A DNA stretch of 59,060 nt from a virus. The notes beneath the pieces were generated by a model. It worked only from the letters and a program-made list of their open reading frames with translations. It was not told the origin of the DNA and made no database searches. Position numbers and translations under genes: made by a program. The number at the start of each line of letters is the position of its first letter. Position 1 is the first letter of the stretch. This document shows, piece after piece, positions 1-59,060 of this stretch. The stretch covers positions 1 through 59,060 of IMG/VR virus record IMGVR_UViG_3300045996_002405, one strand, 5' to 3'.

Positions 1-127
1 AACGCGTGGACGGCCGGGCTCAACGCCACCGTCGCGGCCGCCGCGGCGATCGTCAGCTGGGCGATCGGCCTACCTGGGCAGATCACCGGCGCGGTGCAGG
101 GCCTCGCCGGCCAGCTCTCGGCGTGGG
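1..127. repeat. Terminal direct repeat, identical to 58934-59060
   Basis: The first 127 bases are identical to the last 127. A length of 127 is a common assembler k-mer, so this looks like the overlap of a circular contig. It also coincides with one unit of a 132-bp tandem repeat in the tape-measure gene, which would explain the break point. It is not evidence for a physical packaged terminal repeat. Confidence 0.85.
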
Positions 128-723
128 GGCGCAACGCGTGGAACTCGGCGTACCAGGGCACCGTCGGCGCGGTCGGTGAGCTGATCAGCTACGTCAGCGG
201 CATCGGTGGCCGGATCGTCTCGGCGGTCGGGGACCTCGGCGGCCGGCTCGTCGCGGCGGGGCGCGCGATCATCTCCGGACTGCTGTCGGGGATCAGGCAG
301 GGCGCGCAGGAGGTCTTCGACTTCGTCAGCGGGATCGGCGACCGGATCGCGTCGCTGAAGGGACCGTTGCCCTACGACAAGGTTCTGTTGATCCCGAACG
401 GCAAGGCGCTGATGACCGGGCTCGACGTCGGTCTGCGTCGCGGCTGGCCGCAGGTCGAGGCGACCCTGCGCCGGATGACCGCCGACCTGCCGTCCACGGT
501 CCCGGTCCGCCTGGCGGGCAAGCGACCGGCGCCGCAGCTGCAGCGCGCCCCGATGACCCGTAACGGCGTCACGCTCACCCCGCAGCAGGTGCCGCGCTCG
601 ACGACCACGATCGACAACAGCCGGACGATCACCGCGACGATCCCGATCACGACGCGCGCCGAGAACCCGCTGATCGTCGCGCGTCGCGCGGCCGACGAGC
701 TGGCACTACTGGGACAGGGGTAG
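1..723 (+). CDS. Tape measure protein, C-terminal part (continues from 59060)
   Basis: This is the last 240 residues of the tail tape measure protein, which sets tail length. The frame is open from base 1 and is the same frame that leaves the window at 59060. The first residues are one copy of a 44-residue unit (NAWTAGLNATV...IGLPGQITGAVQGLAGQLSAW), followed by a diverged unit and a glycine-rich, alternately hydrophobic helix. A C-terminal domain starts near base 370 (PLPYDKVLLIPNGKALM). The next gene starts 3 bases after the stop. The protein is incomplete here only because the circular contig was cut inside the repeat; joined, it is about 1,037 residues. The number of repeat units is uncertain. 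Confidence 0.88.
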   Translation, partial: NAWTAGLNATVAAAAAIVSWAIGLPGQITGAVQGLAGQLSAWGRNAWNSAYQGTVGAVGELISYVSGIGGRIVSAVGDLGGRLVAAGRAIISGLLSGIRQGAQEVFDFVSGIGDRIASLKGPLPYDKVLLIPNGKALMTGLDVGLRRGWPQVEATLRRMTADLPSTVPVRLAGKRPAPQLQRAPMTRNGVTLTPQQVPRSTTTIDNSRTITATIPITTRAENPLIVARRAADELALLGQG

Positions 724-3512: not shown

Positions 3513-5504
3513 ATGCCGCGGTGCGGATGTGGTGACCGGTGCTCGTGCGTGCTGCAGGACGGTCTCGGGGTCGACGTCACCGGCACCGGTGACCCGAACA
3601 ACCCCTACGTCGTCGAGTTCGACGGCTCCGAGGTCGTCGCGCAGGGCCTCACGTGGGACAGCAGCGTGCGCAAGCTCTCGGCGAAGTTGGCGCCCGGCGG
3701 CGGGTTGGAGTTCGACGCCGGCGGCGCGATCCGCAGCACCGTCACCGGCGGTGGTGAGGAGGTCGGCTGGACCACGATCGCCGACCTCGAAGCGCGGGGA
3801 GCCAACGTGGTGATCGGACACGCGGGCGCGGGCTACCTGGTCAAGCCGGAGACGGCGCGACGCAGCTACGAGTACGGCCAGCAAATCGGCGTGGACGCCA
3901 TGCACGTCCCCGTGCGGATGCTGATGGACGGAACGCCTGTGGTGCACTCCGACGAGACGCTGGGACGCACGCACGGGGAGCCGTGGAACGCGGCGGCGTG
4001 GCAGGCGATCCACGTCCAGGAGATCGACGGGCACCGCTGGGGAATCGTGCCGATGCTCTCCGGGCTCGACAGCCCCTATCTGCGCAACCAGCCGGACGGC
4101 AACACCGACCCGACGATCGAGTTCAACGCCGCGGCGTGGGCGGACAACGCGAAGTGGCAGACCCGGTCGCCGAGCTTCGGGTTCCTCGGGAACCGGGAGC
4201 AGCCGCAGTACGGCGGGACGTTCCTGGCGGACGTGTTCCGCGACGTCGGCGGTCGAACACCGTTGATCATCGACCTGCGCTGGCCGGCGCGCACCGGCGG
4301 CAACGGGGCGTTCGTGCGCTCGACACCGGCCTGGCGCACCGACCTGTTCCTGCGCAACACGCTCTCCATGATCCAAAGGTTCGGGCTGTCGTCCTACGTG
4401 GTCGTCACCTCCGACCAGATCACGATCCCCGCGCAGGTCGTCGGGCAGACCGTCAACGTGCTGGACTACTTCTCGTCGGCGGGGATCCGAGTCGGCCCGC
4501 AGATGACGTCCGCGAACGTCAGCACCTACCCGCCCAGCTCCTGGCCCGCGACGTGGAGCTGGGCGTTCTTCCCGACGACGATCAGCGACGCCACGATCGC
4601 CACCTATGCCGCGCTCACGCCCGGCGGGAACCCGCTGCGGCGGGTGTTGCTGCAGGTCCAGCGACAGACCGTGTGGCGCGACCGGATCACCACGCCGGGC
4701 CTGCTCGGCGGCACGAGCGCTGACCCGGTCTACGCGTACGGCCTGGTCGGCGGCACGCACCCGCTGTCCGGGCTCGGGTACCGACGCAACTGGTCGGACT
4801 GGGGACAGGCCACCGTGCAGCACGGGTTGATCCCACCGGCCGAGGGCGCGACGAGGGTGTCGCCGTACCTGCGCGGCCTGCACGAACCCGGCGTGGACCG
4901 CACCCTGTTCGGGCCGCAGATGGTGCCGGTCGTGTCCGGCACGGGCTATCACGTGCTGCAGGGCCGTCTCGGTCCGCTGCCGGTCCCCACCGACGTGAGC
5001 TTCGACTTCGTGCTGGGCATGGACGAGTTCGAGTCGCCGCGGGTCGGCGGCTGGCTCGGGTTCACCTTCGGCCGCGTCGACGACTCCCAGTTCACCGACT
5101 GGAACCCGGCGCCGGGGGCGAACGCGGCCGCGCAGAGCGGGTACCTGTTCCTGATGAACGGGCTCAACACCGCGACGGACGCCGTGAACCCGAACCTCTA
5201 CCTCTACGGCTACCAGGGCAGCGCGGTCGTCACGATCGGCTCGGCGCGGACCCTCACACCCGTGGCGGCCGGCGCGGGCAAGCGGTTCCGGATCGGGGTT
5301 AACAACAAGGGCCTCCGGATCTCGGCGGTGCAGGGCGACGGATCCCTGGTGACGCTGATCGAGTCCCGGACCGACCTGGCCAAGGCGCACCGCGGCCCGT
5401 ACATGCACCTCGGACGCCGCAGCCAGACATCGGCGGGCTGGTACGGATGGTGTGAGGGATTCACGTGGACCGCGTTCGCCGGCGCGGTCGACGGCCCGCA
5501 GTAG
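3513..5504 (+). CDS. Minor tail protein with GDPD-like domain
   Basis: 663 residues; ATG preceded by GGGAGGA. The N-terminus (MPRCGCGDRCSC) is cysteine-rich. Residues about 100-330 follow the order of a glycerophosphodiester phosphodiesterase barrel: GHAGAG...PETARRSYEYGQQIG, DGTPVVHSDETLGRTHG, and further beta strands such as PLIIDLRWPA. The remaining 250 residues form a separate beta-rich, probably host-facing domain. In true GDPD enzymes the start reads HRG, followed by an ExD metal site and HD. Here these read HAG, MHVPV and HSD, so activity is doubtful. The protein may bind a glycerophosphate polymer such as teichoic acid rather than cut it. The fold assignment is by motif order only. 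Confidence 0.7.
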   Translation: MPRCGCGDRCSCVLQDGLGVDVTGTGDPNNPYVVEFDGSEVVAQGLTWDSSVRKLSAKLAPGGGLEFDAGGAIRSTVTGGGEEVGWTTIADLEARGANVVIGHAGAGYLVKPETARRSYEYGQQIGVDAMHVPVRMLMDGTPVVHSDETLGRTHGEPWNAAAWQAIHVQEIDGHRWGIVPMLSGLDSPYLRNQPDGNTDPTIEFNAAAWADNAKWQTRSPSFGFLGNREQPQYGGTFLADVFRDVGGRTPLIIDLRWPARTGGNGAFVRSTPAWRTDLFLRNTLSMIQRFGLSSYVVVTSDQITIPAQVVGQTVNVLDYFSSAGIRVGPQMTSANVSTYPPSSWPATWSWAFFPTTISDATIATYAALTPGGNPLRRVLLQVQRQTVWRDRITTPGLLGGTSADPVYAYGLVGGTHPLSGLGYRRNWSDWGQATVQHGLIPPAEGATRVSPYLRGLHEPGVDRTLFGPQMVPVVSGTGYHVLQGRLGPLPVPTDVSFDFVLGMDEFESPRVGGWLGFTFGRVDDSQFTDWNPAPGANAAAQSGYLFLMNGLNTATDAVNPNLYLYGYQGSAVVTIGSARTLTPVAAGAGKRFRIGVNNKGLRISAVQGDGSLVTLIESRTDLAKAHRGPYMHLGRRSQTSAGWYGWCEGFTWTAFAGAVDGPQ

Positions 5505-7247: not shown

Positions 7248-8408
7248 TCAAGGCGTGCGGTCGGCGAACTGCCGGCCGATGACGGTCGACGGGCTGCCCG
7301 CGTAGCTGCCGCGACGGCGGCCGTAGCGGACGGTCGTGGTGATGCTCGCGTGCCCGAACTGCCGCTGGATCTCGGGCAGCGGCACCCCAGCGCGGTCCGC
7401 GGCGTCGCGGAGGCTGTGGCGCAGCACGTGCGGGGTGACGGTGTGCGGCTCCTCGATGCCGGCGATCTGAGCCAGGTGGCCGATCAGGGCGTCGATGCCC
7501 TGGCGGCTCATCCTCGCGCCGGTGCGGGTGTAGAACGCCGGAGCGGAGCGGCCGCCGACGTCGCCGACGCGGGCCAGCGCTGCCCGGTCGCCGCGGCGGT
7601 CGGTCTCCCAGTACTCGACCAGCGCCGACCAGGCCCAGTCGTTGACCGCGACGGCGTGGACGTGGTCGCCCTTGACGCGCAGCCGCGCGATCCGTTGTCC
7701 GACGTCGATGCGGAAGTCGTCGCGGTTCAACGCGACCGCTTCGGACACGCGGCATCCGACGGTCGCCATGAACCGCGTAACCGCCCGCGCGCGGGGACGC
7801 AGGTCGAGCGGCGTGAACTGGTCGCCCGCGTCGACGAACGCGTTCAGCTCGTCGGCCGACAGCGACCGGGTCGGGGACACGGTGGGCACCTGCAGTTCGG
7901 CGCGACGCCGGTTGATCACGACCGGTGTGCAGTCGATCCGCTCGGCTACCGTCACGGCGTGCTCGTAGAACATCTCCACGGCGGTGAGGGCGTTCGCGCG
8001 CGACGCCGTCGACAGCGGTCGGCCGCGGTTCTTCCCCCGCGTCTGGGGCATCGTCGCCAGCAGCTCCAGCCAGTGCACGACCACCCGCCGACCGGCGTCG
8101 TAGGGGTGCAGGCCCAGACCGCGGCACAGCGTGAACCAAGACGCGCCGTTGAGCATGTCCGGCACCCGCTGGGACCGGTCGGGTCGGTCGAGCGCGACCG
8201 GATCCCACCAGGCGCCGAGAGCGTTCGCGTAGGTGAGGCGCGTCCGGTGCGACGTGTAACCCGACAGCCACTCGTCGGTGTCCGCGCGGAGCGCGACCCA
8301 GTCGGGGTCGCGCTCCGTCCACGTGCGCGCGTCGGCCGAGCCGGTCGCGGTCTGCTGCGGCGGGATGATCAGCTGCCCGGTCATCGCGGGCAGCACCAGC
8401 TTGGTCAC
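7248..8408 (-). CDS. int: Tyrosine-type phage integrase
   Basis: 386 residues from a GTG that overlaps the preceding stop. It catalyses site-specific recombination between phage and host attachment sites. The C-terminal catalytic domain shows the expected order: GCRVSEAVAL (first Arg, about residue 220), TPHVLRHSLRDAA (HxxR, about 325-331), FGHASITTTVRYG (His/Tyr, about 352-363). A SAM-like helical core-binding domain (LTYANALGAWW, LTAVEMFYEHAV) precedes it. The enzyme marks the phage as temperate. The excisionase candidate is far away at 26661. No attP could be identified. Confidence 0.93.
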   Translation of the reverse strand: MTKLVLPAMTGQLIIPPQQTATGSADARTWTERDPDWVALRADTDEWLSGYTSHRTRLTYANALGAWWDPVALDRPDRSQRVPDMLNGASWFTLCRGLGLHPYDAGRRVVVHWLELLATMPQTRGKNRGRPLSTASRANALTAVEMFYEHAVTVAERIDCTPVVINRRRAELQVPTVSPTRSLSADELNAFVDAGDQFTPLDLRPRARAVTRFMATVGCRVSEAVALNRDDFRIDVGQRIARLRVKGDHVHAVAVNDWAWSALVEYWETDRRGDRAALARVGDVGGRSAPAFYTRTGARMSRQGIDALIGHLAQIAGIEEPHTVTPHVLRHSLRDAADRAGVPLPEIQRQFGHASITTTVRYGRRRGSYAGSPSTVIGRQFADRTP

Positions 8409-32968: not shown

Positions 32969-33574
32969 ATGACGCCGCCGCGCCCCCTGCAGATGACGCA
33001 CAAGATCGTCCCGATCGACGAGGTCACCGCGTTCCCCGGCAACGCCCGGCTCGGCGACCAAGCCGGCATCGGCGAGTCGCTCGATGCGCACGGGCAGTTC
33101 GACCCGCTGATCGTGCAGGCGAGCACCGGTCACATCATCGCCGGGAACAACACCTGGGCCGCGATGAAACAACAGGGCGCGACCGAGGTCGCGATCTCGC
33201 TCGTCGACGTCGACGACGACACCGCGCGGAAGATGAACCTCGTACACAACCGGCTCAACGACAAAGCGCGGTACGACGACCGGCTGCTGCTGGAAATGCT
33301 CGCCGACCTCGACGACCTCGACGGCACCGGCTACGACGCCGACGACATCGACGCCCTCGAAGAATCGTTGCGCACCGCCGACCTAGACGAGCTGGCCGAC
33401 GAGATCGGCGACCCCGGACGCGACGACGGCTGGCCCTCGATCAACGTCCGGGTGCCGCACGTGGTCATGGCCGCCTGGAAATCACACGTCGACACCCACA
33501 GCGGCGACGACGCACAGGCAATGGCCGGACTGCTGGGAATCGATTGGGACCAGGTAGATTCGGCCGATCGATGA
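32969..33574 (+). CDS. ParB-like domain protein of the DNA-modification cassette
   Basis: 201 residues, ATG; no ribosome-binding site, but a -10 (TAACAC) 8 bases upstream suggests leaderless expression; a second ATG at 32993 is possible. Residues 9-100 follow the ParB/sulfiredoxin fold: HKIVPIDEVTAFPGNARLGDQAGIGESLDAHGQFDPLIVQ...GHIIAGNNTWAAMKQQG. The C-terminal part is acidic with no clear helix-turn-helix. Its stop overlaps the DpdA start, tying it to DNA modification. Orphan ParB-like proteins occur beside DpdA genes in some actinophages. It may guide site choice, or instead bind the GGTCCACG repeats. Confidence 0.78.
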   Translation: MTPPRPLQMTHKIVPIDEVTAFPGNARLGDQAGIGESLDAHGQFDPLIVQASTGHIIAGNNTWAAMKQQGATEVAISLVDVDDDTARKMNLVHNRLNDKARYDDRLLLEMLADLDDLDGTGYDADDIDALEESLRTADLDELADEIGDPGRDDGWPSINVRVPHVVMAAWKSHVDTHSGDDAQAMAGLLGIDWDQVDSADR

Positions 33575-34512
33575 CGACCCGCATCGACACACCGGTCGAC
33601 ACCCTCGTCTCGTACCACTACTTCCGGCGCGACGAGGTGATGCGAGCCCTCACCGGCACGAAGAAACTCCGGCTGATCGCGGACTCGGGCGCGTTCTCCG
33701 CGTTCAGCCAGGGCGCGGAAATCGCCCTGGACGAGTACGCCCAGTGGTGCCGCACCTGGTCGGACCACCTGTGCTGGACCGCGAGCTTGGACGTGTTCGG
33801 CAACCCGCGCGCCAGCTATGCGAACTGGCGGACCCTGCTCGACGAGCACGGCCTGCGCACCGTCCCGACGATCCACATCGGCACCGACCCGACTTGGCTC
33901 GACACCTACGCCGACGCCGGCGTGGACTTCGTCGGGCTCGGAGGCATGGTCGGCCGCGGAACCGGGGTGATCCGCTGGGTCGTGCACGTGCTGCGCTACG
34001 CACGCGACCGGCACCCCGCGATGCGGTTCCACGGGTGGGGCGTCACCGCGCCGACCATGCTCGACCGCGTCCCGCTCTACAGCGCCGACAGCAGCGGCCT
34101 GGTCAACCAGGCGTGCCGCTTCGGGTCGCTGCGGCTCTACGACCCGCGCACCCGCACGCACCGGACGTTCCGCCTCGACGGCCGCACCCCGCACCAGCAC
34201 CGGCGCCTGCTGTCCGAGGTCTACGGCGTCTCGGCCGCGCAGGTCGCCACCAGCCACGCGAGCAACCGCGCCCAGATCATCCAGCTGTGCGCCGCGGCGA
34301 CCCAGCTCTACGCGGCCGACCTGCAGCGGCGGCACCGCGTCACCGCGCCGTCGTGGGGCATCAACCACGCCGCGCCCTCGATGCCGGGCGACGCACTCAC
34401 CGGTCCCCGCGTCCACATGGTGTCCGCGCAGCCGAAGGACTTCCCACGGCTGCTCGGGCTCGACCCGCACCAGCTCCTCCCGACCCCTACTCGAAGGACG
34501 GCCCAACGGTGA
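33571..34512 (+). CDS. dpdA: DpdA-like 7-deazaguanine DNA transglycosylase
   Basis: 313 residues, ATG overlapping the previous stop. It would exchange guanine in DNA for a 7-deazaguanine base. It shows the TGT-barrel signatures: ADSGAFSAFSQG (compare DSGGF in tRNA-guanine transglycosylases) at about residues 35-46, SLDVFGNP at about 74-81, TVPTIHIG, and FVGLGGMVGRG at about 124-134. I do not see the CxCxxC zinc site of the tRNA enzymes, consistent with a diverged DNA-acting branch. It is followed directly by the preQ0 genes. The substrate is inferred from that context. Confidence 0.82.
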   Translation: MTTRIDTPVDTLVSYHYFRRDEVMRALTGTKKLRLIADSGAFSAFSQGAEIALDEYAQWCRTWSDHLCWTASLDVFGNPRASYANWRTLLDEHGLRTVPTIHIGTDPTWLDTYADAGVDFVGLGGMVGRGTGVIRWVVHVLRYARDRHPAMRFHGWGVTAPTMLDRVPLYSADSSGLVNQACRFGSLRLYDPRTRTHRTFRLDGRTPHQHRRLLSEVYGVSAAQVATSHASNRAQIIQLCAAATQLYAADLQRRHRVTAPSWGINHAAPSMPGDALTGPRVHMVSAQPKDFPRLLGLDPHQLLPTPTRRTAQR

Positions 34513-35243
34513 CCCACCAACCCCCGCCGCTCGACGGCGACCGCTCGTACCTCGTCCTGCTCTCCGGCGGACTCGACTCGACCGTGCTCACGACCGACCT
34601 GCTCGTCTCCGGCGCGACCGTGCAGGCCGTGTCGATCCACTACGGCCAGCGGCACGAGCGCGAACTGATCGCCGCGGCGGCCGTCGCGGCGCACCTGCAG
34701 GTGCCCTACTCGCCGATCGAGCTGCTGGCGCTCGGCTCCCACCTGACCTCGTCGCTCACCGGCGCCGCACCGGTGCCCCACGGCCACTACGCCGACGCGA
34801 ACATGTCCAGCACGGTCGTCCCCAACCGCAACGCGATCATGCTCATGGTCGCCGCCGGGATCGCCGCGGCGCGCGGCCTCGACGCCGTGGTCACCGCCGT
34901 GCACGCCGGTGACCACCCGGTGTACCCCGACTGCCGGCCCGAGTTCGTCGCGGCCGCGAACACCGCGGCGCTGCTGGGCACCGGCGGGCAGGTGGAAATC
35001 CACGCGCCGTACGCCCGGATCACCAAGGAGCAGATCGTGCAGCGCGGCGCGCGCGTCGTCGCACCGTTCGCGCTGACGTGGTCCTGCTACCAGGGTGGTG
35101 ACACCCACTGCGGACGGTGCGGCACGTGCGTTGAGCGCGCCGAGGCGTTCGCGGCCGCCGGCGTGCAGGACCCCACGACCTACCTTGACCCGGACTTCTG
35201 GCGCACCGCCACCGAGCGCCAGGCCGCCGAGGTGACCTCATGA
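34509..35243 (+). CDS. queC: 7-cyano-7-deazaguanine (preQ0) synthase
   Basis: 244 residues from GTG overlapping the DpdA stop. ATP-dependent conversion of carboxydeazaguanine to preQ0. PP-loop VLLSGGLDSTVL at about residues 16-27; VVPNRNAIMLMVAAGIA; HAGDHPVYPDCRPEF; C-terminal zinc cysteines SCYQGGDTHCGRCGTCVERAEAF. All expected motifs are present and length is normal (about 220-245). Confidence 0.93.
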   Translation: MTHQPPPLDGDRSYLVLLSGGLDSTVLTTDLLVSGATVQAVSIHYGQRHERELIAAAAVAAHLQVPYSPIELLALGSHLTSSLTGAAPVPHGHYADANMSSTVVPNRNAIMLMVAAGIAAARGLDAVVTAVHAGDHPVYPDCRPEFVAAANTAALLGTGGQVEIHAPYARITKEQIVQRGARVVAPFALTWSCYQGGDTHCGRCGTCVERAEAFAAAGVQDPTTYLDPDFWRTATERQAAEVTS

Positions 35244-35731
35244 CGCGCGGCTTCCCGCACGGCGCGGCCCCGGGCCCGATCCCCGGCGGGTGCGCTGTCA
35301 CCGTGCGGCACAACTTCGAGGCCGCGCACCGGCTGCCCGCGCTCGGCGGCAAGTGCGTCTCGCTGCACGGCCACTCATGGTGGCTCGACGCGACCTTCGG
35401 CACGCCCGCCGACGACCCGTCGAACCCGCCGATCGACTTCGGGCAGGTCAAGAGCGCCGTGCGGCACTGGGTCGACAAGCACCTGGACCACGCGACGCTG
35501 ATTGGGGAATCCGACCCGCTGCTGCCCGCGCTCACCGCCGAGGGCTGCAAGGTCTACCGCTTCGGCCACGACTACCACGCCCGCGACCTGGCGTGGCCCA
35601 CGGTCGAAGCCGTCGCGGTGCTGGCATACCGCACTCTGCGCGTGATCGCCGCGACGCTGCACCCCGACCTGACCCTGCTGCGCGTGCGGGTGCAGGAAAC
35701 CCACACCAACGCCGTCGAGGTGCCGTCGTGA
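35240..35731 (+). CDS. queD: 6-carboxytetrahydropterin synthase
   Basis: 163 residues, ATG overlapping the QueC stop. Converts dihydroneopterin triphosphate to carboxytetrahydropterin. Zinc-binding histidines in NFEAAHRLP and LHGHSWW, catalytic Cys in GGKCVSLHGH, PTVEAVAVL, and C-terminal VRVQETHTNAVEV are all present. Second step of preQ0 synthesis after FolE. Confidence 0.92.
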   Translation: MTRGFPHGAAPGPIPGGCAVTVRHNFEAAHRLPALGGKCVSLHGHSWWLDATFGTPADDPSNPPIDFGQVKSAVRHWVDKHLDHATLIGESDPLLPALTAEGCKVYRFGHDYHARDLAWPTVEAVAVLAYRTLRVIAATLHPDLTLLRVRVQETHTNAVEVPS

Positions 35732-36531
35732 TGCGGCCGGTCGTCACCGGGCACGGCCTGGCTTGGCTGCGCGCCACCGACGCCGACGCCCGCGCGCTGC
35801 CCCCGCTGTCCGACCGGGCGACCCTGCCGCTCGCGGAGGTGTTCGGCCCGACCTGGCAGGGCGAGGGACCGCACACCGGCGTTCCGGCCCGGTTCGTCCG
35901 GCTCGGGCACTGCAACCTCTCGTGCGGCGCGGACGGCGGCACGATGCGGTGCGACACCCCGCAGACGTGGGACCACGACCGGTTCAACGTCGGCGCCGAG
36001 TGTCCGGACACCACGACGCGGGAGATCGTCGAGCGCGCTGCGGCGATCCCGGCAGCGATCACCGTTCTGACCGGCGGTGAGCCGCTGCTGCACCACCGCA
36101 GACCCGCTTTCGCCGCGCTGCTGGCGCACCTGGCCACGCTCGGTCCCGTGCACGTCGAGACCAACGGCACGATCCCACCCGCCCCCGAGCACGACTACGT
36201 GATCGCGCACTACTCGGTCAGCCCGAAGCTGACCAACACCGGCGACCCTCACCGGCGCCGCATCCGCCGCGGCGCACTCGTCGATTTCAACGACCGGCGC
36301 TCGGCGATCTTCAAGTTCGTCTGTGCCAACACGGCCGACGTCGACGAGGTGCACGACCTCGTCACCGACTGCGGACTGGACCCCGACCGAGTGTGGATCA
36401 TGCCCGAGGGCATCACCGCCGACGACGTGCTGGCCACCCACCGACTCATCGCCGACGACGTGCTGCGTCTCGGCTACCGGACCACGACACGGCTGCACAC
36501 GCTGCTGTGGGGAAGCGAGCGCGGACGATGA
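35731..36531 (+). CDS. queE: 7-carboxy-7-deazaguanine synthase (radical SAM)
   Basis: 266 residues, ATG overlapping the QueD stop. Radical-SAM ring contraction to carboxydeazaguanine. EVFGPTWQGEGPHTGVPARFVRLGHCNLSC, then a third cysteine (MRCDT) eight residues on; the spacing C-x3-C-x8-C differs from the usual CxxxCxxC but resembles long-insert QueE forms. TVLTGGEPLLH (SAM/GGE motif), HVETNGTIPP and SVSPKL are also present. The operon position makes the call secure. Confidence 0.88.
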   Translation: MRPVVTGHGLAWLRATDADARALPPLSDRATLPLAEVFGPTWQGEGPHTGVPARFVRLGHCNLSCGADGGTMRCDTPQTWDHDRFNVGAECPDTTTREIVERAAAIPAAITVLTGGEPLLHHRRPAFAALLAHLATLGPVHVETNGTIPPAPEHDYVIAHYSVSPKLTNTGDPHRRRIRRGALVDFNDRRSAIFKFVCANTADVDEVHDLVTDCGLDPDRVWIMPEGITADDVLATHRLIADDVLRLGYRTTTRLHTLLWGSERGR

Positions 36532-37154
36532 CCACCACCGCCCAGCCCGACCAGCTCGTCGACGGGCACCAGGCCGACGACGTCGACGAGGTGCTGCGCC
36601 GCGCGCACGACGGCGTCCGCGCTCTGCTGCAGCTGGCGGGGGAGGACCCCGACCGCGAGGGACTGCGCCGCACGCCGGCACGCGTCGTCGCCGCGCTGCA
36701 GGACATGACCAGCGCCCCCGGCGACCCCGCCGCGCTGCTGGGCGTGCAGTTCGAGCACGTCGACGCCGGCGGGGAGGTCGTGCAGCTCGGCCCGATCAGC
36801 TTCACCAGCACGTGCGAGCACCACCTGCTCCCCTTCACCGGCCACGTCTGGATCGCCTACCAGCCCACCGACCGGGTCGTCGGCCTGTCCAAACTCGCGC
36901 GCCTGGTCGAGCACCACGCGCGCCGCTTGCAGATCCAGGAGCGGATGACCCAGCAGCTCGTCGACGACCTCGTGACCCACCTGGCACCGGCGGGCGCGGC
37001 CGTCACCGTCCGCGCGACGCACACGTGCATGGCGCTGCGCGGCATCCGCAAACCCGGTGCCGTGATGGACACCGCCGCCCGGCGGGGGGTGTTCCGCACC
37101 GACCCGACGATCCACGCCCAGCACGCGCAGTTCGTGCAGACGCAACGACCCTGA
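36528..37154 (+). CDS. folE: GTP cyclohydrolase I
   Basis: 208 residues, ATG overlapping the QueE stop. First committed step: GTP to dihydroneopterin triphosphate. Zinc ligands and signatures TSTCEHHLLPFTGHVWIAY (about 93-111), VVGLSKLARLVEHHARRLQIQERMT, THTCMALRGIRKPG (about 164-177) are complete. Having its own FolE makes the phage independent of host pterin supply. Last gene of the coupled cassette. Confidence 0.94.
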   Translation: MTTTAQPDQLVDGHQADDVDEVLRRAHDGVRALLQLAGEDPDREGLRRTPARVVAALQDMTSAPGDPAALLGVQFEHVDAGGEVVQLGPISFTSTCEHHLLPFTGHVWIAYQPTDRVVGLSKLARLVEHHARRLQIQERMTQQLVDDLVTHLAPAGAAVTVRATHTCMALRGIRKPGAVMDTAARRGVFRTDPTIHAQHAQFVQTQRP

Positions 37155-39447: not shown

Positions 39448-39908
39448 TGTTCCGCCGTTCGGTGGCTCGCCGTGCTTACTCTGTGATCGTGACCAGCCTC
39501 CTTCACCTCCTTCGACTGACGGGCCTCACCGCCCGGGTGACCCGACTGATCGTCAGCGACACGATCACCGCTCCCGCACGCGAACACGTGATCAAGCTCC
39601 TCACCTACGACAAGAACCAGCGCGCGGCGATCCGGAAGCACGAGCGGGACCGTGCGGCCGCGATCACCGAGGGAACCCCACCCGACGCGCTGCCGAAGCT
39701 CCGGCTCCCCGCTCCGACGTCAGCCGCGGCGGCCGCGGTCCGGACGCGGATCGCCGAGCTGATCACCTGCCGGTGGTGCGCCGGCGTCTGGGTCGCCGCG
39801 GCCGTCGTGCTCTCCGCACGGCTGGCCGGACACCGGCGTGCCTGGCAGCACGTCGCGGACGCCGCGACAGCGGCCTACCTGACCGGGTTCGTCGCGGGAC
39901 ACGAGTAG
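39447..39908 (+). CDS. DUF1360-like membrane protein
   Basis: 153 residues from ATG 39447 (TGATG overlap with terL); GTG 39489 is an alternative start. RLTGLTARVTRLIVSDTITAPAREHV, then ITCRWCAGVWVAAAVVLSARL and a second weak membrane helix (AATAAYLTGFVAG), matches DUF1360, common beside terminase in actinophages. Role unknown. Confidence 0.75.
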   Translation: MFRRSVARRAYSVIVTSLLHLLRLTGLTARVTRLIVSDTITAPAREHVIKLLTYDKNQRAAIRKHERDRAAAITEGTPPDALPKLRLPAPTSAAAAAVRTRIAELITCRWCAGVWVAAAVVLSARLAGHRRAWQHVADAATAAYLTGFVAGHE

Positions 39909-42512: not shown

Positions 42513-42711
42513 CGTCGAGCCCTCCGTTCCGTGTCACAGGTGTGTGGTCTGCGTCAAGTGTGCAGGTCAGCACCGACAATGTCCCCCCTAAAACTGGCAA
42601 CCCCAGGGTTTGCGCAGCTAGACCCCGGTGGCGACGCCGGCGAGCTCGTCGACCTCGACCGAGATCCGTGGTCATCACGGCGGTCCCGTCTACCCTGATC
42701 AGCAGTCGTCG

Positions 42712-42757
42712 CCGATCTGGCTGTGGGCCGGGCGCTACCCCGACAGGAGTGCGCCCG
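42712..42757 (+). promoter_or_regulatory. Structured 5' leader, copy 1 (before MuF/protease gene)
   Basis: Conserved CCGATCTGGC and GGGCCGGG block. CTGGC (42717-42721) can pair with GCCGG (42727-42731). Alternatively CGGGCGC (42729-42735) pairs with GCGCCCG (42751-42757), putting the ribosome-binding site ACAGGAG in a 15-base loop one base from the ATG. A TACCCT -10-like box lies upstream at 42691. Confidence 0.7.
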
Positions 42758-42758
42758 C

Positions 42759-45245
42759 ATGACCCTCCCCGCCGCGTGGCAGACCCAGCTCGACGCGTTC
42801 ACCGCCCGCGTCGACGACGCCGAGGTCGTCGTGTTCGACACGACACTGGCCGCGATGAGCGAGTACCTGCGGCTCGTGCGCGCCGCGGTGCTCGGCGGCC
42901 GCACCATCACCGCGGCCGCCGACGACGAGGTGCCACCGGAGCAGCTGCCCCCGAACCTCGACGCGTTCCCCCCGCCGGAGGTGTGGGCACAGCTGCTCGC
43001 CGACGGGCTGCTGGCCACCCTGGAAGCGGTGTGGGGAGAGGCGTTCGCGGCCATCGCGCGGATCGCCCCGATCGCGGTGACGCCCTACCGCGCCACGTTC
43101 GTCACCGAGGTCACCGACCGCCTCTCGCGCAACCTGTGGCCCGACGGTGTCTTCGAGGAGTGCCGCTACGAGCTGCAGGAGGGGATCGACGCAGGGGAGT
43201 CGATCAACCAGCTGCGCGACCGGCTCGGCCTGGTCCTCGGGATCGATGCGCCGTCACGCGCGGTCCGCGCGCAGATCAACGAGCACAAGCGCCGCGGTGA
43301 ACCGGTCCCCGGCGAGCTGTACGCGCAGCTGCGCGAGGCAGACCGCACCTGGCACTACTTCGCGCGCCGCATCGCCCGGACCGAAACGCTCATGGCCAGC
43401 AACGGCGGCACTCACGCGGCTGCCGTCGCCAGCGTCGACCTGCTGGGCGAGCAGCGCTGGAAGGTCTGGTACGCCACCAGCGACAACCGCGTGCGCGACG
43501 CTCACTGGCTCGCGCACGGCCAGGTGCGCGACGTGCGCGAGAAGTTCGACGTCATGGGGGAGGGGCTGGACCACCCCGGCGACCCGCTCGGCAGCGCCGC
43601 GAACGTCATCCAGTGCCGCTGCACCGAGCTGATCTTGACCACGCAGGACGAAGCCGACGAGCAGGCCGCGCGCTACGACGCCGAGCTGCCGCACCGCACC
43701 GACCCGGAAGGGGAACCGCTCGTGCCGACACCGAAGGCCACCGGCCGCAGGAGCACCACCGCCGCGGCGGTCGACGACGTCGACCCCGCCGAGCAGACCA
43801 CGCAGACCACGCAGACCCCGCTGTACTGGGAAGGGCCTCTCATGGCCCTCGACCACGCCACCGGTGACGGCAGGCTGATGGAGACGCCCAAGGACGGCAT
43901 CGTCGCGACGAACCACCCCTGGCTGTCCTGGCAGCGAGCATCGGCCTACGGCCACGACGGCAAGGTCGGTGTCGGGCGGCCCGAGCGGCTGTGGATCGCG
44001 CCGGCCGCGCTGGACGGGCAGCAGGTGCCGCACCTGTGGGGCGGCGGCACGTTCGACCCGACCGACGCCGACGCCGACACCTTCGTCGCGAAGCTGGCCG
44101 CCGGGTACGCCGGCACCGTGTCGGTCGACCTCGACCAGGCGGTCGGCGAGACGCGCTGGTTCGACCCCGAGGGCAACCAGGTCGACGAGCCCACCGAGGA
44201 CGAGTGGTGGGACTGGGCCGAGGGACAGGACATCGGCAAGGAACCCCTCGCCGTGTTCCCGCAGTGGCGGTTCGCCGGTGTCACCGGCGTGCAAGACCCG
44301 GCGTTCCACACCGGCTGGATCCAGCTCGTCAGCACGCCCTCGTCGACGGCCGACGTGTGGACCCTCGACATGACCAGCTTCACCGGGGCCCAGGCGATCA
44401 CCGCGTCGGCCGGGTCGCTGACGTGGTGCGAGCAGGTCGCCGCGCGAGCCCCCGAACAGCCGCCGGCGGCCTGGTTCCAGGATCCGCGGCTCACCGGGTG
44501 GAGCAAGCTCCGCGTGACCGATGAGGGCCGCGTGTACGGACACATCGCGCCGTGGGGCGCCGAGCACGCTTCGATCCCCGGCATGTACGTCCCCGCCGAC
44601 CCGCACGGCGGCTCCTACCCCCGGTGGCACCATCACCCGGTGCACTGCTCGGACGGGTCGGTCGTGCTGACCGGGCCGATCAGCACCGGCGGCCACGCCG
44701 ACACCGACGAGTGGACCACCCTCACGCAGGCCCAGGCGCACTACGACCGGCCCGAGTTCGTCGGGGCCGACGTCGTGGTCGGGGAGGACGCTCACGGCAT
44801 CTGGTGCTCCGGGTCGCTGCGGCCCGGCGTCACGCCGCTGCAGGTGCTCTTCCTCTCCCGCTACAGCCAGTCCGGCGACTGGCGCAACGGCGAACTGATC
44901 GCGTCGTGCGCGGTGTCCGTCCCCGCGTTCGACGCGCCGCACGACCCGAGCGTCGTCGCGCTGGCCGCGTCAGCCGGTCCTCACCGGCCCGTGCTGGCGT
45001 CGGCGCGCACCCGGTGCCGGATCGACGAGCACGGCCGGGTCGCCGCGCTCGTCGCCGCCGGCGTGCCGCGAGGACGAGCGCGGCGGACCGACCGAGCGGC
45101 CGCCGCGCTGCCCGCGACCGCCGGGTTCGACCTCATGCGCCAGCTGCGCCAGGCGCAGCGCACCGACCACCAGGTCGCGGCCGCGGCTCGCCGGATCGTC
45201 GGTGCCGGGGTCGAGGCTGCTCGTCACCGCGTCATCGGAAACTAG
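42759..45245 (+). CDS. MuF-like head protein fused to capsid maturation protease
   Basis: 828 residues from ATG 42759. Residues about 1-300 are a MuF-like minor head domain (RRIARTETLMASNGGTHAAAV at about 204-224, WYATSDNRVRDAHWLAHGQ). After a Thr-rich linker, residues about 354-560 look like a prohead serine protease (PLYWEGPLMALDHATGDGRLM, GHDGKVGVGRPERLW, GTVSVDLDQAV with the likely nucleophile serine near 453). The remaining 270 residues contain another folded region (DEGRVYGHIAPWG...HPVHCSDGSVVLTGPI) and a basic tail. Fusions of these two functions are known in some actinophages. Expressed behind structured leader copy 1. Confidence 0.8.
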   Translation: MTLPAAWQTQLDAFTARVDDAEVVVFDTTLAAMSEYLRLVRAAVLGGRTITAAADDEVPPEQLPPNLDAFPPPEVWAQLLADGLLATLEAVWGEAFAAIARIAPIAVTPYRATFVTEVTDRLSRNLWPDGVFEECRYELQEGIDAGESINQLRDRLGLVLGIDAPSRAVRAQINEHKRRGEPVPGELYAQLREADRTWHYFARRIARTETLMASNGGTHAAAVASVDLLGEQRWKVWYATSDNRVRDAHWLAHGQVRDVREKFDVMGEGLDHPGDPLGSAANVIQCRCTELILTTQDEADEQAARYDAELPHRTDPEGEPLVPTPKATGRRSTTAAAVDDVDPAEQTTQTTQTPLYWEGPLMALDHATGDGRLMETPKDGIVATNHPWLSWQRASAYGHDGKVGVGRPERLWIAPAALDGQQVPHLWGGGTFDPTDADADTFVAKLAAGYAGTVSVDLDQAVGETRWFDPEGNQVDEPTEDEWWDWAEGQDIGKEPLAVFPQWRFAGVTGVQDPAFHTGWIQLVSTPSSTADVWTLDMTSFTGAQAITASAGSLTWCEQVAARAPEQPPAAWFQDPRLTGWSKLRVTDEGRVYGHIAPWGAEHASIPGMYVPADPHGGSYPRWHHHPVHCSDGSVVLTGPISTGGHADTDEWTTLTQAQAHYDRPEFVGADVVVGEDAHGIWCSGSLRPGVTPLQVLFLSRYSQSGDWRNGELIASCAVSVPAFDAPHDPSVVALAASAGPHRPVLASARTRCRIDEHGRVAALVAAGVPRGRARRTDRAAAALPATAGFDLMRQLRQAQRTDHQVAAAARRIVGAGVEAARHRVIGN

Positions 45246-45668: not shown

Positions 45669-45691
45669 TCGTCAGCTATTCTTCGAGCTGA

Positions 45692-45738
45692 TCGCCCCCC
45701 GTGACCTCGCCAGGAGTCCCCGGGGTCACGGGGGGCGA
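45692..45738 (+). terminator. Terminator between protease and capsid units
   Basis: 15-bp perfect arms TCGCCCCCCGTGACC (45692-45706) and 45724-45738. It separates the protease transcript from the capsid leader. Confidence 0.72.
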
Positions 45739-45745
45739 CACCGCA

Positions 45746-45806
45746 CCGATCTGGCTGTGGGCCGGGTGCACGTCCGTACATCACGACGTGCACTAGGAGT
45801 GCCCCG
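45746..45806 (+). promoter_or_regulatory. Structured 5' leader, copy 2 (before capsid gene)
   Basis: Same conserved CCGATCTGGC/GGGCCGGG block. CTGGC (45751-45755) can pair with GCCGG (45761-45765). Here CGGG (45763-45766) can pair with CCCG (45803-45806), one base before the ATG. The enclosed region has its own 9-bp stem GTGCACGTC (45766-45774) with 45785-45793, sharing one base with that outer pairing. Confidence 0.65.
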
Positions 45807-45807
45807 C

Positions 45808-47802
45808 ATGAATTTCCTCGACGAGCTGATCGACGCCGTCTGCGCATCCGAGCTGGTGGGCGACGAGCTGGTCGCATCCGTGCGCCAGCTCATCCAGGCC
45901 AACCAGGACGGCGACACACCCGCCGACCTGGCCGAGCTGGAGCAGGCCGCGGTCGCCGCGTTCCAGCAGCGCTACAACGACGGCGAGTACGACCCCGTCG
46001 ACGCGCCGGTCCTGATCGGCCTGGACGCCGTCACCGGCGCCGTGCGCGCCGAACTCGCGGAGCAGCAGACCCAGCAGGACGCGCTCGACGCGCAGCTGCA
46101 GGGGCTCGCCGACCGCGTGCTGTCCCCGGACGCCGAGGGGGACGACGACAGCGGGGACGACGACCAGGTCGACCCCGACGACGACCCCGACGACGACCAG
46201 GTCGACGGAACTGGCAGCGACGGTGACGACGCCCCGACCGCGCCGCCGGCCGAGTCCGCGCTGCAGCCCGCGTCGCGACGCCGCGCGCCGATGACCTCGC
46301 GCGCCACCCAGCAGCACCGCCTGGACCGCAACGGCGGCCGCAAGCGCACCGGCGCACCGGCGACCGGCGGCCGCGGGGCGCTGCGTCGGATGAGCATCAC
46401 CGCCGCGGCGGACGTCCCCAACACCCCGACCGGCTCGTCGCTGACCCTGCGCCAGCTCGCGGAAGCCAGCATCCGAAAGTTCGGCCAGATGCCGATCGGC
46501 ACGAAGAACGCCTACGTCCGCAGCTCGCTCGCGGTCGTGCGACGGGAGACCGACGCGTCCCTGGTGGCATCCGGTGGCCGCGACGACGTCGAGCTGGTCG
46601 ACCGGATCGCCAACGAACGCAACTTGCCCGGCGGGTCGCTGCTCGCGGCGCACCGGCGCGCGGTCACCGCCGCGGCGTCGACCGGCACGTTCACCTACGG
46701 CGGGATGTGGTGCGCGCCGTCGGAGACGGACTACACGCTGTGCCCGCAGCTGGCCACCGAATCGGGGATGCTCGACCTCCCCACGATGACCGTGACGCAC
46801 GGCGGGCTCCGCTACCCGGTCACCAACGAGTACCCCGACCTCGGGTACGACCAGTACTTTCGCGAGTACGACGAGAACCACGTGTTCGACCCCGAGGACC
46901 CCGACTCGTTGAAGCCCTGCATCTCCGGGTTCTGCCCGGAGTGGGACGAGGTCCGGTTGAAGGCCCGCCCGCTGTGCATCATGGGCGACATTTTGAAGGA
47001 CCGGGCGTGGCCCGAGCTGGTCGAGCGGTTCATGTCCGACGTGATGATCAAGAACGCGCACTGGATGAACGCGAACTACCTCGCGTACATCGCGTCGCGG
47101 TCGGACCAGGTCGCCTCGTTCTCCGCGCAGACCGGCCAGTTCGGCATCGGCAGCGCGTCGTTCGCGATCGCCGACCGGATCGGCCTGCTCGTCACCTGGT
47201 TCCGCAACCTGTACCGGATGGACCCCGGCGCCACCCTGGAAGGTGTGGCGCCGATGTGGCTGCTCGACCTGTTGAAGGCCGACATCGCCAAGCGGAGCAA
47301 CCGCAACAGCACGGCCGTGTCGACCGCCGAGGTCGACCAGGTCTTCACCGAGCGCGGCGCGCGGATGCAGTGGGTCTACGACTGGCAGTCCGACGCGCTG
47401 GGCGCGGCGAAGGTGTCCGTCCCCAACCCGGACGCCGGACAGCCCGGTCAGCCCGCGACGCTGCAGAGGTGGATGCCGCCGGCGACGTGGCCGACCTCGG
47501 CGACGCTGATGTTCTACCCGGCGGGGAGCTGGGTCCTGGGCCAGCAGGACATCATCACCCTCGACGCGGTGTACGACTCGACGAACCTGCGGCAGAACAT
47601 CTTCACCAGGCTGTTCACCGAGGACGCGTACCTGCTGCTGAACCGCTGCGGCCGCTCGTTCAAGATCACCGTGACCGACCTGTGCGCGAACGGCGCGCTC
47701 GGTCCGTTCCGCGACGCGTGCCCGCCCGCGCTGCCCGCCGTCCCCGGCGCGACCGAGGACGCGCCGCTGTTCACCAGTGAAGTCGCGGCGGCCACGCCGT
47801 GA
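45808..47802 (+). CDS. Major capsid protein with N-terminal scaffold-like region
   Basis: 664 residues from ATG 45808 with TAGGAG upstream. The first 160 residues are helical then strongly acidic (DDDSGDDDQVDPDDDPDDD), like an internal scaffold/delta domain removed by the protease. The rest fits a large HK97-fold capsid: an N-arm, DRIANERNLPGGSLLAAHRRA, spine-helix-like stretches, ARMQWVYDWQSDALG, SATLMFYPAGSWVLGQQDIITLDAVYDSTNL. Its place after the protease and before tail genes supports the call. Confidence 0.85.
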   Translation: MNFLDELIDAVCASELVGDELVASVRQLIQANQDGDTPADLAELEQAAVAAFQQRYNDGEYDPVDAPVLIGLDAVTGAVRAELAEQQTQQDALDAQLQGLADRVLSPDAEGDDDSGDDDQVDPDDDPDDDQVDGTGSDGDDAPTAPPAESALQPASRRRAPMTSRATQQHRLDRNGGRKRTGAPATGGRGALRRMSITAAADVPNTPTGSSLTLRQLAEASIRKFGQMPIGTKNAYVRSSLAVVRRETDASLVASGGRDDVELVDRIANERNLPGGSLLAAHRRAVTAAASTGTFTYGGMWCAPSETDYTLCPQLATESGMLDLPTMTVTHGGLRYPVTNEYPDLGYDQYFREYDENHVFDPEDPDSLKPCISGFCPEWDEVRLKARPLCIMGDILKDRAWPELVERFMSDVMIKNAHWMNANYLAYIASRSDQVASFSAQTGQFGIGSASFAIADRIGLLVTWFRNLYRMDPGATLEGVAPMWLLDLLKADIAKRSNRNSTAVSTAEVDQVFTERGARMQWVYDWQSDALGAAKVSVPNPDAGQPGQPATLQRWMPPATWPTSATLMFYPAGSWVLGQQDIITLDAVYDSTNLRQNIFTRLFTEDAYLLLNRCGRSFKITVTDLCANGALGPFRDACPPALPAVPGATEDAPLFTSEVAAATP

Positions 47803-56348: not shown

Positions 56349-56491
56349 GGTCCCCCCCTCTCTGCGGTGGTGGTGGTCGTGTGCACGGTAGCTGTCCACT
56401 GCCGGACACAGCACGGGTTCGGATCATCCCCGCGCGCGGGACCAGGGCGTACGACCACCCGCGCTCTATGCTGGCCGTCGAGTAGCTGCTG

Positions 56492-56541
56492 CCGATCTGG
56501 CTCAGGGCCGGGCACACGATCCCGTAGGGGAGGTGTGCCCG
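56492..56541 (+). promoter_or_regulatory. Structured 5' leader, copy 3 (before tape measure)
   Basis: CCGATCTGGC and GGGCCGGG block again. CTGGC (56497-56501) with GCCGG (56507-56511); alternatively CGGGCACAC (56509-56517) with GTGTGCCCG (56533-56541), enclosing GTAGGGGAG in a 15-base loop, one base before TTG 56543. Compared with copy 1, both arms change together (GCGC to GCAC/GTGC), so pairing is kept. TATGCT at 56467 is a candidate -10. Confidence 0.72.
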
Positions 56542-56542
56542 C

Positions 56543-59060
56543 TTGAACATCGCCGAAGCGATCGTCGAGATCATCGCCGACGGCAAGCGCTTCACGGCGT
56601 CGTTCCGCAACCAGGTCGGCAAGGCCGGTGCGGAAGCGGGCCGGCAGTTCGACGCGGGCTTCGAGAAGGCCACCGCGCAGACCGGCGCGAAGGTCTCCCG
56701 CGACGTCAACGGCCGACTGCGCGACGAGCGCGGACGTTTCCTCTCCGGCGGTGCGCAGGCCGGCACGACGTGGGGTGACGCGTTCCGCAACGCGCTCGCG
56801 TTCAAGCTGGCCAGCGGGGCGATCAGCAAGATTTTCGCGCCGCTCAACGCGCTCGGCAGAGGACTCGGGCTCGCCGTGGCCGGAGCTGGCGCCGCGGCGG
56901 CCGCGGCGCAGCTGCTGACGTTCGTCGGCGTGGCCGGTCAGACCGCCGGCGTGCTGCTCGCGATCCCGGCGGCCGCGCTGGTGGGAGCGGCCGCGCTGTC
57001 GACGTTGCGCGTCGCGACCTCCGGCATGAGCGACGCGTTCGCCGCCGCGGCGTCCGGCGACCCGAAGAAGCTGGCCGAAGCGCTCAAACAGCTCTCACCG
57101 GCCGCGCGGTCGGTGGTGGGCGAGTTCGCCGAGCTGGTGCCGCAGCTCAACGCTGTGCGCACGGCCGTCCAGGACGCGTTCTTCGACCAGCTGCAGGGCC
57201 AGCTGACCGCCGTCGCGGCGAACCTCGCGGGGCCGGTTCAGAGCGGCATGGTCGGCACCGCCGCAGCCGCCGGAGCCGTCGCGCTCGGGATCGCGCGCAT
57301 CGCGCAGCAGGCAGAGACCGCGCAGCTCGTCAGCGGCGTGTTCGACACCGCCGCCGGATCGATCGCGAACCTCGAGCCGGGGCTGCTCGCGATCGTCACC
57401 GGGTTCCGCGACCTCGGCGGGGTCGCGCTGCCCCTGGTGGGGCAGCTGTCGCAGGGGATCGGCGGGCTTGCGGTCCAGTTCGGCACGTGGCTGTCCTCGA
57501 TCGCCGGCAGCGGCCAGGCGCTCACCTGGATCCAGACCGCCGTCGGCACGCTGCGTCAACTCGGCGACCTGCTCACGCAGGTCGGCGGCATCTTCGCGAC
57601 CATCTTCGGCGCCGCGCAGACCACCGGCGGCGGGCTGCTGGGCACGCTGACCGAGCTGTTGCGCGGCGTGAACGCGTTCCTCTCCTCCGGCGAGGGGCAG
57701 TCGGCGCTGCAGGCGGTTTTCCTCGCGCTGCAGGAGGTCGGCGGGGCGCTGGGGCCGGTGCTCGGGTCGCTGCTGAGCGCGCTCGGTCAGCTGGCCGGCC
57801 CGGCGGCCGCGCTGGCTGTGGCGCTCGGACCCGGCATCTCCGCGGCGCTGCGGGCACTGGGGCCGGCTATCGCAGCGCTGGGTCCTGGGCTCGAAGTCGT
57901 CGCGAAGGGGCTCGCCGACGCGCTGGCCAACCCCGACGTCGCCGCGGGGCTGCTGTCGCTGGGGCAGGGCCTCTCGGCGACGCTCGCGGCGCTGGGCCCG
58001 CTGATGCCCGTGCTCGGCCAGCTCGTCGCGGTGATCGGCAACGCTCTCGGGCGGTCGCTGCAGGTCGTCGCGCCGATCCTGCAGAAGGTCGCGGAGGCGC
58101 TGGCGTGGCTGCTCCCGCCGATCATCTCCCTGATCGACAAGGCGCAAGCGCTGGTCACGGCGTTCGTCGGCTGGGCCTACCTCGACGTGCTACCGGCGGT
58201 GCTGGGCCGCATCGGTGATGCCGCGGCCGCGGTCGGGCGATGGTTCGCCGGGCTGTGGGACACGCTGACCGGGTTCAGCTGGTCGGACGTGACCTCGGCG
58301 ATCGGCGACGCCGCTGCTGGCATCGGCGGTTTCTTCTCCGGGCTCGGCTCGACCGTGCTCGGCGCGTTGCGCGGTGTCGCGTCGGGTGTCGCGGACTGGG
58401 CCTCCGGGCTCGCGTCGTCGGCAGGTTCCGGCGTGTCCGACTTCGTGGGGTCGGTCGTCGACTGGTTCGCGGCGCTACCAGCCCGCATCGGTGCCGCGCT
58501 GGCCGCGCTGCCCGGTCAGCTGTGGCAGCTGCTCGTCAACGCGCTGACGTTCGCCGCGACGGCGGTCGGCTACGGCATCGGTGCCGTGCTGGCCGCGATC
58601 GTGCTGCTCCCGCAGCTGATCGCGAACGTCCTCGTCGGGCTCGGTCAGCTGCTCTGGAACGTGCTCACCGCGGCGTGGACGTACGCGACGACCGCCGTGG
58701 TGACCGGGCTCGCTGCGATCGTCACCTGGTCGATCGGCCTCCCGGCTCGGATCATCGCTGGTCTGCAGACCCTCGGTGAGCAGCTGTCGGCGTGGGCGTC
58801 GAACGCGTGGACGGCCGGGCTCAACGCCACCGTCGCGGCCGCCGCGGCGATCGTCAGCTGGGCGATCGGCCTACCTGGGCAGATCACCGGCGCGGTGCAG
58901 GGCCTCGCCGGCCAGCTCTCGGCGTGGGCGTCGAACGCGTGGACGGCCGGGCTCAACGCCACCGTCGCGGCCGCCGCGGCGATCGTCAGCTGGGCGATCG
59001 GCCTACCTGGGCAGATCACCGGCGCGGTGCAGGGCCTCGCCGGCCAGCTCTCGGCGTGGG
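56543..59060 (+). CDS. Tape measure protein, N-terminal part (continues at 1)
   Basis: 839 codons in the window, counting the repeated end, from TTG 56543 with AGGGGAGG upstream. Reads MNIAEAIVEIIADGKRFTASFRNQVGKAG, then long hydrophobic helices (KIFAPLNALGRGLGLAVAGAGAAAAAAQLLTFVGVAG), Gly/Ala/Leu-rich stretches and Leu/Gln repeats typical of tail rulers. From about residue 740, units ending in QLSAWASNAW repeat every 44 residues, two identical in DNA. The frame meets position 1 exactly when 58934-59060 is overlaid on 1-127. Its expression depends on the structured leader just upstream. Confidence 0.92.
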   Translation, partial: MNIAEAIVEIIADGKRFTASFRNQVGKAGAEAGRQFDAGFEKATAQTGAKVSRDVNGRLRDERGRFLSGGAQAGTTWGDAFRNALAFKLASGAISKIFAPLNALGRGLGLAVAGAGAAAAAAQLLTFVGVAGQTAGVLLAIPAAALVGAAALSTLRVATSGMSDAFAAAASGDPKKLAEALKQLSPAARSVVGEFAELVPQLNAVRTAVQDAFFDQLQGQLTAVAANLAGPVQSGMVGTAAAAGAVALGIARIAQQAETAQLVSGVFDTAAGSIANLEPGLLAIVTGFRDLGGVALPLVGQLSQGIGGLAVQFGTWLSSIAGSGQALTWIQTAVGTLRQLGDLLTQVGGIFATIFGAAQTTGGGLLGTLTELLRGVNAFLSSGEGQSALQAVFLALQEVGGALGPVLGSLLSALGQLAGPAAALAVALGPGISAALRALGPAIAALGPGLEVVAKGLADALANPDVAAGLLSLGQGLSATLAALGPLMPVLGQLVAVIGNALGRSLQVVAPILQKVAEALAWLLPPIISLIDKAQALVTAFVGWAYLDVLPAVLGRIGDAAAAVGRWFAGLWDTLTGFSWSDVTSAIGDAAAGIGGFFSGLGSTVLGALRGVASGVADWASGLASSAGSGVSDFVGSVVDWFAALPARIGAALAALPGQLWQLLVNALTFAATAVGYGIGAVLAAIVLLPQLIANVLVGLGQLLWNVLTAAWTYATTAVVTGLAAIVTWSIGLPARIIAGLQTLGEQLSAWASNAWTAGLNATVAAAAAIVSWAIGLPGQITGAVQGLAGQLSAWASNAWTAGLNATVAAAAAIVSWAIGLPGQITGAVQGLAGQLSAW
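58802..59060 (+). repeat. 132-bp tandem repeat in tape measure gene
   Basis: 58802-58933 and 58934-59060 (continuing at 1) are identical at every base compared, with identity extending about 15 bases upstream of each. Period 132 bp = 44 codons, so frame is kept. True copy number may be higher because identical units longer than the assembler word collapse. Confidence 0.85.

Follow-up and report, generated by a model that had tools for sequence, protein, structure and literature searches.

Why the same short sequence should stand ahead of three morphogenesis genes of one siphophage is the question raised by the IMG/VR record IMGVR_UViG_3300045996_002405, whose entire 59,060 bp were analysed and will be referred to as the window. 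The original prediction, made from the sequence alone, described this sequence as an RNA leader that hides the ribosome-binding site of the MuF/protease, capsid and tape-measure genes. The gene identities hold. The gene for a MuF-like/head maturation protease fusion lies at 42759..45245 (start ATG 42759), the major capsid gene (major head protein; phrog_777, 6e-109) at 45808..47802 and the tape-measure gene (phrog_305; start TTG 56543) at 56543..59059, running past the window end; all three are on the plus strand. Window positions 1-723 correspond to the C-terminal part of the tape measure, the record being cut within the tape-measure gene (56543-59060), and tape-measure coding repeats are common to both window ends. 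Since the tape measure is split over the two ends and the ends share repeats, a circularly permuted, nearly complete genome is probable. The phage is probably also temperate, as a phage integrase (phrog_1) is found at 7248-8408. By sequence reading alone, the proteins encoded at 33571-37154 resemble a DpdA-like transglycosylase, QueC, QueD, QueE and FolE, a putative set for 7-deazaguanine synthesis and DNA modification. No close relative of the window was found in the collections searched; its relatives, at approximately 30% protein identity, are the cluster B mycobacteriophages and several Gordonia phages. A single-protein search with the window capsid yielded no relatives, so that alignments were required to reach them.

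The predicted shared sequence is present ahead of all three genes. CCGATCTGGCNNNGGGCCGGG occurs exactly three times in the window, at 42712, 45746 and 56492, always on the plus strand like all leader features described below, and the same three sites alone were obtained when up to three mismatches were allowed (shuffles average 0.54). Scanning the window with a covariance model yielded 28.4, 28.1 and 24.1 bits for copies 1, 2 and 3, respectively, and 18.6 bits for the next match, which lies within coding sequence. Thus, the leader repeat is confirmed; the fold stressed originally is not its conserved core, which is instead a 15-nt hairpin, CTGGC-N5-GCCGG. This hairpin is located at 42717..42731 in copy 1 (CTGGC-TGTGG-GCCGG, arms 42717-42721 and 42727-42731), at 45751..45765 in copy 2 (CTGGC-TGTGG-GCCGG) and at 56497..56511 in copy 3 (CTGGC-TCAGG-GCCGG). 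The arms are constant, as had been claimed; the loop, said to vary between copies, is identical in copies 1 and 2 and differs in copy 3 only. A -10-like box precedes copy 1 (TACCCT, 42691..42696) by 20 nt and copy 3 (TATGCT, 56467..56472) by 24 nt. For copy 2, sequence reading identifies the box TATTCT at 45677..45682, and an extra hairpin, the 14-bp perfect inverted repeat CGCCCCCCGTGACC / GGTCACGGGGGGCG (45693..45737), intervenes before the element. Without this repeat the gap between box and element would be approximately 23 nt, as in the other copies, and for this reason the capsid-gene leader seems to carry an inserted hairpin; a box at the usual distance from copy 2 is obtained only when the insertion is skipped.

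The element is not confined to the window phage. It was found in tens of distantly related actinophages and prophages of Gordonia, Rhodococcus, Nocardia, Tsukamurella, Micromonospora and Streptomyces as well as in cluster B mycobacteriophages, and the capsids of these relatives share only approximately 30% identity with the window capsid. The core CTGGC-NNN-GGGCCGG is present in the capsid-gene leaders of Heathcliff, SynergyX, Glass, Evaa, Axumite, Twister6, Lilbeanie, GTE6, Phinally, DoctorFroggo, Bizzy and Geodirt, and the capsid-gene leaders of other annotated relatives contain related forms of it. Microbacterium genomes carry forms reading ATGGCGGYTCGGGCC, one per genome and ahead of the capsid gene, which were excluded from the model. 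Relatives were collected via capsid alignments (80, 80 and 79 virus loci plus 22 loci from bacterial genomes, 4.08 Mb in total), and matches were counted as distinct contexts. On the strand that encodes the structural genes, 109 matches to CTGGCN4GGCCGG were detected; the opposite strand gave 6 and the reversed control 18. A TANNNT box that ends 8-29 nt before the element accompanied 91 of the 109 forward matches (83%) compared to 2% of random positions, and most of the remaining 18 resemble coding sequence. In nine whole actinobacterial host genomes (~63 Mb), the combination of box and element occurred 17 times and the reversed control not at all. No bacterial genome with such matches has them on more than one contig, and wherever prophage coordinates are known they fall inside or close to the prophage. 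An exact motif scan of IMG/VR gave 61 raw matches, of which the one in Lilbeanie (position 5118) turned out to be coding sequence.

The genes downstream of the element are structural and lysis genes. In Lilbeanie they are annotated as capsid, major tail protein and endolysin, in Twister6 as capsid, major tail, tape measure and endolysin, and in GTE6 as capsid, Orf23 (a structural protein in the major-tail position) and lysin; in metagenomic phages, the downstream proteins read as protease, capsid, major tail, tape measure, amidase, lysin-B-like and tail proteins. Because the genes that follow are capsid, tail, tape-measure and lysis genes, and because a single genome can contain up to eight copies (G017), we conclude from the sequences that the cassette marks separate late transcription units. 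In most relatives (loci L155-L168), a strong terminator-like hairpin occupies the junction of the capsid gene with its downstream neighbour. Late genes may accordingly be separated by terminators in the relatives, an arrangement that would fit an antitermination element.

The order of the cassette is a -10-like TANNNT box, a gap of 13-28 nt (mode 15-17, counted from the box end), the 15-nt hairpin, a further 21-57 nt (median 36) and the start codon. No clear -35 was visible in the aligned leaders, only a weak TT near -27 and GGG ahead of the box. Housekeeping promoters start transcription approximately 7 nt past the -10 box. If transcription starts just after the box, the hairpin would begin within approximately 20 nt of the 5′ end and would thus be the first structure in the late mRNA. 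That the promoter-plus-leader cassette itself is real can be regarded as virtually certain.

Evidence for pairing was obtained from an alignment of 51 distinct sequences, with locus L271 included and L383 left out. The five stem pairs are formed in 94.1% of the cells of this alignment, whereas slid registers reach at most 55%, and none of 500 shuffles attained the observed covariation score. At the loop-closing position, 44 sequences have C-G, 7 have U-A and none has a broken pair; the second pair (2-14) is U-G in 40, C-G in 7 and U-A in one; two stem pairs are invariant; and the outermost pair (1-15) is broken in 12 of 51, often as C.A. The exchange of C-G for U-A arose more than once, since it is also seen with other loops and unbulged stems in L271 and in L383, a G017 copy whose sister copies keep C-G. 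Fifteen leaders of the cluster B type, which belong to a larger set and are represented in the 51 by a subset, contain a one-base bulge between pairs 3 and 4. This bulge was placed after the pairing had been seen, which biases these rows toward the stem. Nevertheless, an independent MAFFT alignment opened the gap in the cluster-B-type rows at the same place, and the isolated bulged hairpins are predicted to fold as drawn. The element always follows the orientation of its gene and its distance to the box varies over more than one helical turn, which fits an RNA better than a DNA site. Altogether, the 15-nt element quite probably acts as an RNA hairpin.

The loops are mostly of the types TNNGG, CNNGG and TNTGT. 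Among the 21 genomes or loci with at least two copies, the four loop bases are identical in 30 of 45 within-genome pairs (permutation mean 5.9, maximum 15). Twister6 (CGAG), Lilbeanie (CTGG) and GTE6 (TAGG) each keep one loop constant, and all three infect Gordonia terrae. Since phages of one host differ in their loops, a host protein reading the loop would be no explanation, whereas a phage protein or gene conversion would be. The pattern suggests that the loop is read by a phage-encoded partner; it could also stem from gene conversion instead of a cognate protein. Comparing the gene content of ten carriers for a candidate trans-acting factor, we found structural genes, the terminase and a small membrane protein (phrog_781) to be common to all. 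The phrog_781 family, encoded at 39537-39908 in the window, is present in 10 of 10 carriers and 2 of 4 non-carriers. A search of 20 further window proteins against PHROGs gave no match named antiterminator. The Streptomyces variant CTGGCGGTAGGCCGG includes GGCGGTAG, as does the enterobacterial ops site, and because of this ops-like sequence a NusG/RfaH-like factor was sought; PF02357 was absent from 21 carrier genomes, while control genomes were positive. The Streptomyces phages phiSAJS1 and Mischief19 (L073, positions 3643 and 12740; L169, position 481) carry the variant CTGGCGGTAGGCCG, likewise with GGCGGTAG inside.

Does the leader hide the ribosome-binding site, as originally proposed, and release it through two mutually exclusive folds? 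The stems in question do exist. In copy 1, CGGGCGC (42729-42735) and GCGCCCG (42751-42757) form 7 bp around a 15-nt loop containing AGGAG and end one base before ATG 42759; in copy 3, CGGGCACAC (56509-56517) and GTGTGCCCG (56533-56541) form 9 bp around a loop of the same length, ending one base before TTG 56543. The paired changes between the arms of both copies were confirmed by sequence, as was the competing 5-bp stem CTGGC/GCCGG, which has CGG in common with the enclosing stem. Copy 2 is without a simple enclosing stem and instead contains a 9-bp hairpin, GTGCACGTC / GACGTGCAC (45766..45793, arms 45766-45774 and 45785-45793), 5′ of its Shine-Dalgarno sequence. Compared to dinucleotide shuffles, copy 3 folds clearly more stably (z -4.0), whereas copies 1 and 2 are no better than shuffles (z of approximately -1.2). 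Similar but short stems are found in some relatives (L313 at 14075, several copies in L292), the mean anchored-stem score of 91 leaders slightly exceeds that of leaders with swapped 3′ ends (11.0 compared to 10.13 ± 0.19), and the 3′ arm of the hairpin is pairable downstream slightly more often than in shuffles (0.80 versus 0.74, p = 0.003). However, most relatives lack the enclosing stem, and pairing of their Shine-Dalgarno sequences shows no excess over shuffled leaders (0.523 versus 0.502, p = 0.63). Homologous leaders thus keep the 15-nt hairpin with compensatory changes but mostly not the stem around the ribosome-binding site. When copies 1 and 3 were constrained to form the 15-nt hairpin, the enclosing stem became shorter, but the Shine-Dalgarno sequence was still not freed in the predicted fold; a simple either/or switch is therefore unsupported by the energy calculation. 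With anchored-stem scores near the control and Shine-Dalgarno pairing at the level of shuffles, occlusion of the ribosome-binding site was ruled out as the general function. As the Shine-Dalgarno sequence is not additionally paired in relatives and the forced hairpin does not free it, such hiding may at most be a local addition in the window phage. What survives of the riboregulator or operator reading is a shared late-gene leader element, probably an RNA structure; that it works mainly by hiding and releasing the ribosome-binding site we consider improbable.

Further explanations have to be weighed against an RNA mark read by a phage factor. The element might be a DNA site, an operator or activator approximately 10-30 bp past the late promoter start, whose imperfect inverted repeat is bound by a phage transcription factor. 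A short inverted repeat beside a promoter-like box with such poorly defined -35 sequences would suit a site of this kind, and a palindromic DNA site would also give covarying symmetric positions. Nevertheless, the use of one orientation only and the range of box spacings argue against it, the pair 2-14 (T/G) is asymmetric as DNA but paired as RNA, and one-nucleotide insertions are confined to the 5′ arm, so that we regard the DNA site as unlikely. Slightly less likely still is a passive structure, an mRNA stabiliser or ribosome standby site depending on host machinery only. Its position at the inferred 5′ end of the late mRNAs would suit this role, as late mRNAs are highly expressed and the hosts have 5′-end-dependent RNases; G3, G4, C12 and C13, however, are nearly invariant, far beyond the needs of a stable stem, and phages sharing a host each keep one loop, which differs from phage to phage. 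Chance repeats are practically out of the question: high G+C content does produce frequent short inverted repeats, and single matches in coding sequence such as the one in Lilbeanie do occur, but the strand bias of 109:6, the reversed control, the frequency of the promoter box and the restriction to prophages in ~63 Mb of host DNA refute this explanation.

The reading that we favour, giving it about even credence, is that of a recognition hairpin in the leader which marks late transcripts and is read by a phage factor. The promoter-plus-leader cassette would serve the late genes of a large actinophage family. Transcription would start just past the TANNNT box, placing the hairpin at the head of the late mRNA, and a phage-encoded factor would read the loop and thereby tag the late transcripts, resulting in processive antitermination, translation or 5′-end protection. 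In window copies 1 and 3, the stem around the ribosome-binding site, which shares three bases with the hairpin, would possibly add another layer. Among these outcomes we lean to a recognition site on the nascent late transcript resembling nut/boxB, because the element is located at the 5′ end and away from the ribosome site, and because up to eight separate units each have a copy in front, although this analogy has a minority share of our confidence. Somewhat more tentatively, a boxB-like actinophage regulon can be envisaged, in which late expression is switched on by a phage RNA-binding factor that recognises a phage-specific loop, without cross-activation between phages sharing a host.

In the literature searched, we found no account of how the late genes for capsid, tail and lysis are activated in these actinophages. 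The element marks late genes across a very large family including the cluster B mycobacteriophages and easily grown Gordonia phages. As it involves few copies of one 15-base site with a loop that is exchangeable between phages of the same host, the late-gene question becomes directly testable. The element is also an aid for annotators locating late promoters, and control of the late genes in these viruses may depend on it as a tag.

The original statement that no such family has been described agrees with the sources available: Rfam gave no match in the window at the gathering score, and no earlier description was found in the open-licence main text of PubMed Central, while subscription papers or supplementary figures could hold one. 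Several known elements are similar in part. The SAS of cluster K mycobacteriophages is a 13-bp motif, GGGATAGGAGCCC, that constitutes the ribosome-binding site, with 3-7 bp between it and the start codon (PMC3203893). SAS and ESAS, found in clusters K and EF (Microbacterium), are intergenic, precede non-structural genes nearly always in one orientation and have inverted repeats nearby; ESAS is a 17-bp inverted repeat for which the authors saw little support for RNA pairing (PMC3203893, PMC7302621). Like SAS, the element described here is a short, repeated intergenic actinophage motif of nearly constant orientation before several genes, but it has a different sequence, ends 21-57 nt before the start codon, contains no Shine-Dalgarno sequence and precedes capsid, protease, tail and lysin genes; in contrast to ESAS, its 5-bp stem covaries, with compensatory changes at the loop-closing pair. 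The intergenic repeats of Microbacterium clusters EC (consensus TAGaCTCTaGGTgTaAgC) and EG (GATCAACCNNGGTTGATC), with EI described as EC-like, mostly accompany non-structural genes (PMC7302621). Like the element, these repeats recur on the same side of start codons among related phages, but the EC and EG sequences are unrelated to it. RfaH/ops differs in that the carriers are without a NusG-like protein (PF02357, 21 genomes). In the MS2/R17 coat-protein operator a single base bulges out two pairs below the loop, and the cluster-B-type variants show the same feature; the element, however, has a five-base loop, is mostly unbulged, is distant from the start codon and occurs in DNA phages. Phage leader RNAs that serve as recognition sites include lambda boxB (N antitermination) and the HK022 put RNA; boxB is a 15-nt hairpin with a 5-bp stem and a 5-nt loop, and its loop differences between phages match each phage's own protein. 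In contrast to lambda nut/boxB, the element lacks a GNRA-like purine loop, is located before late rather than early genes in 1-8 copies, and is found without a NusG-like gene. Nevertheless, judged by geometry alone, it has the same design as boxB, a 15-nt hairpin with a 5-bp stem and a 5-nt loop in the leader of a phage transcript.
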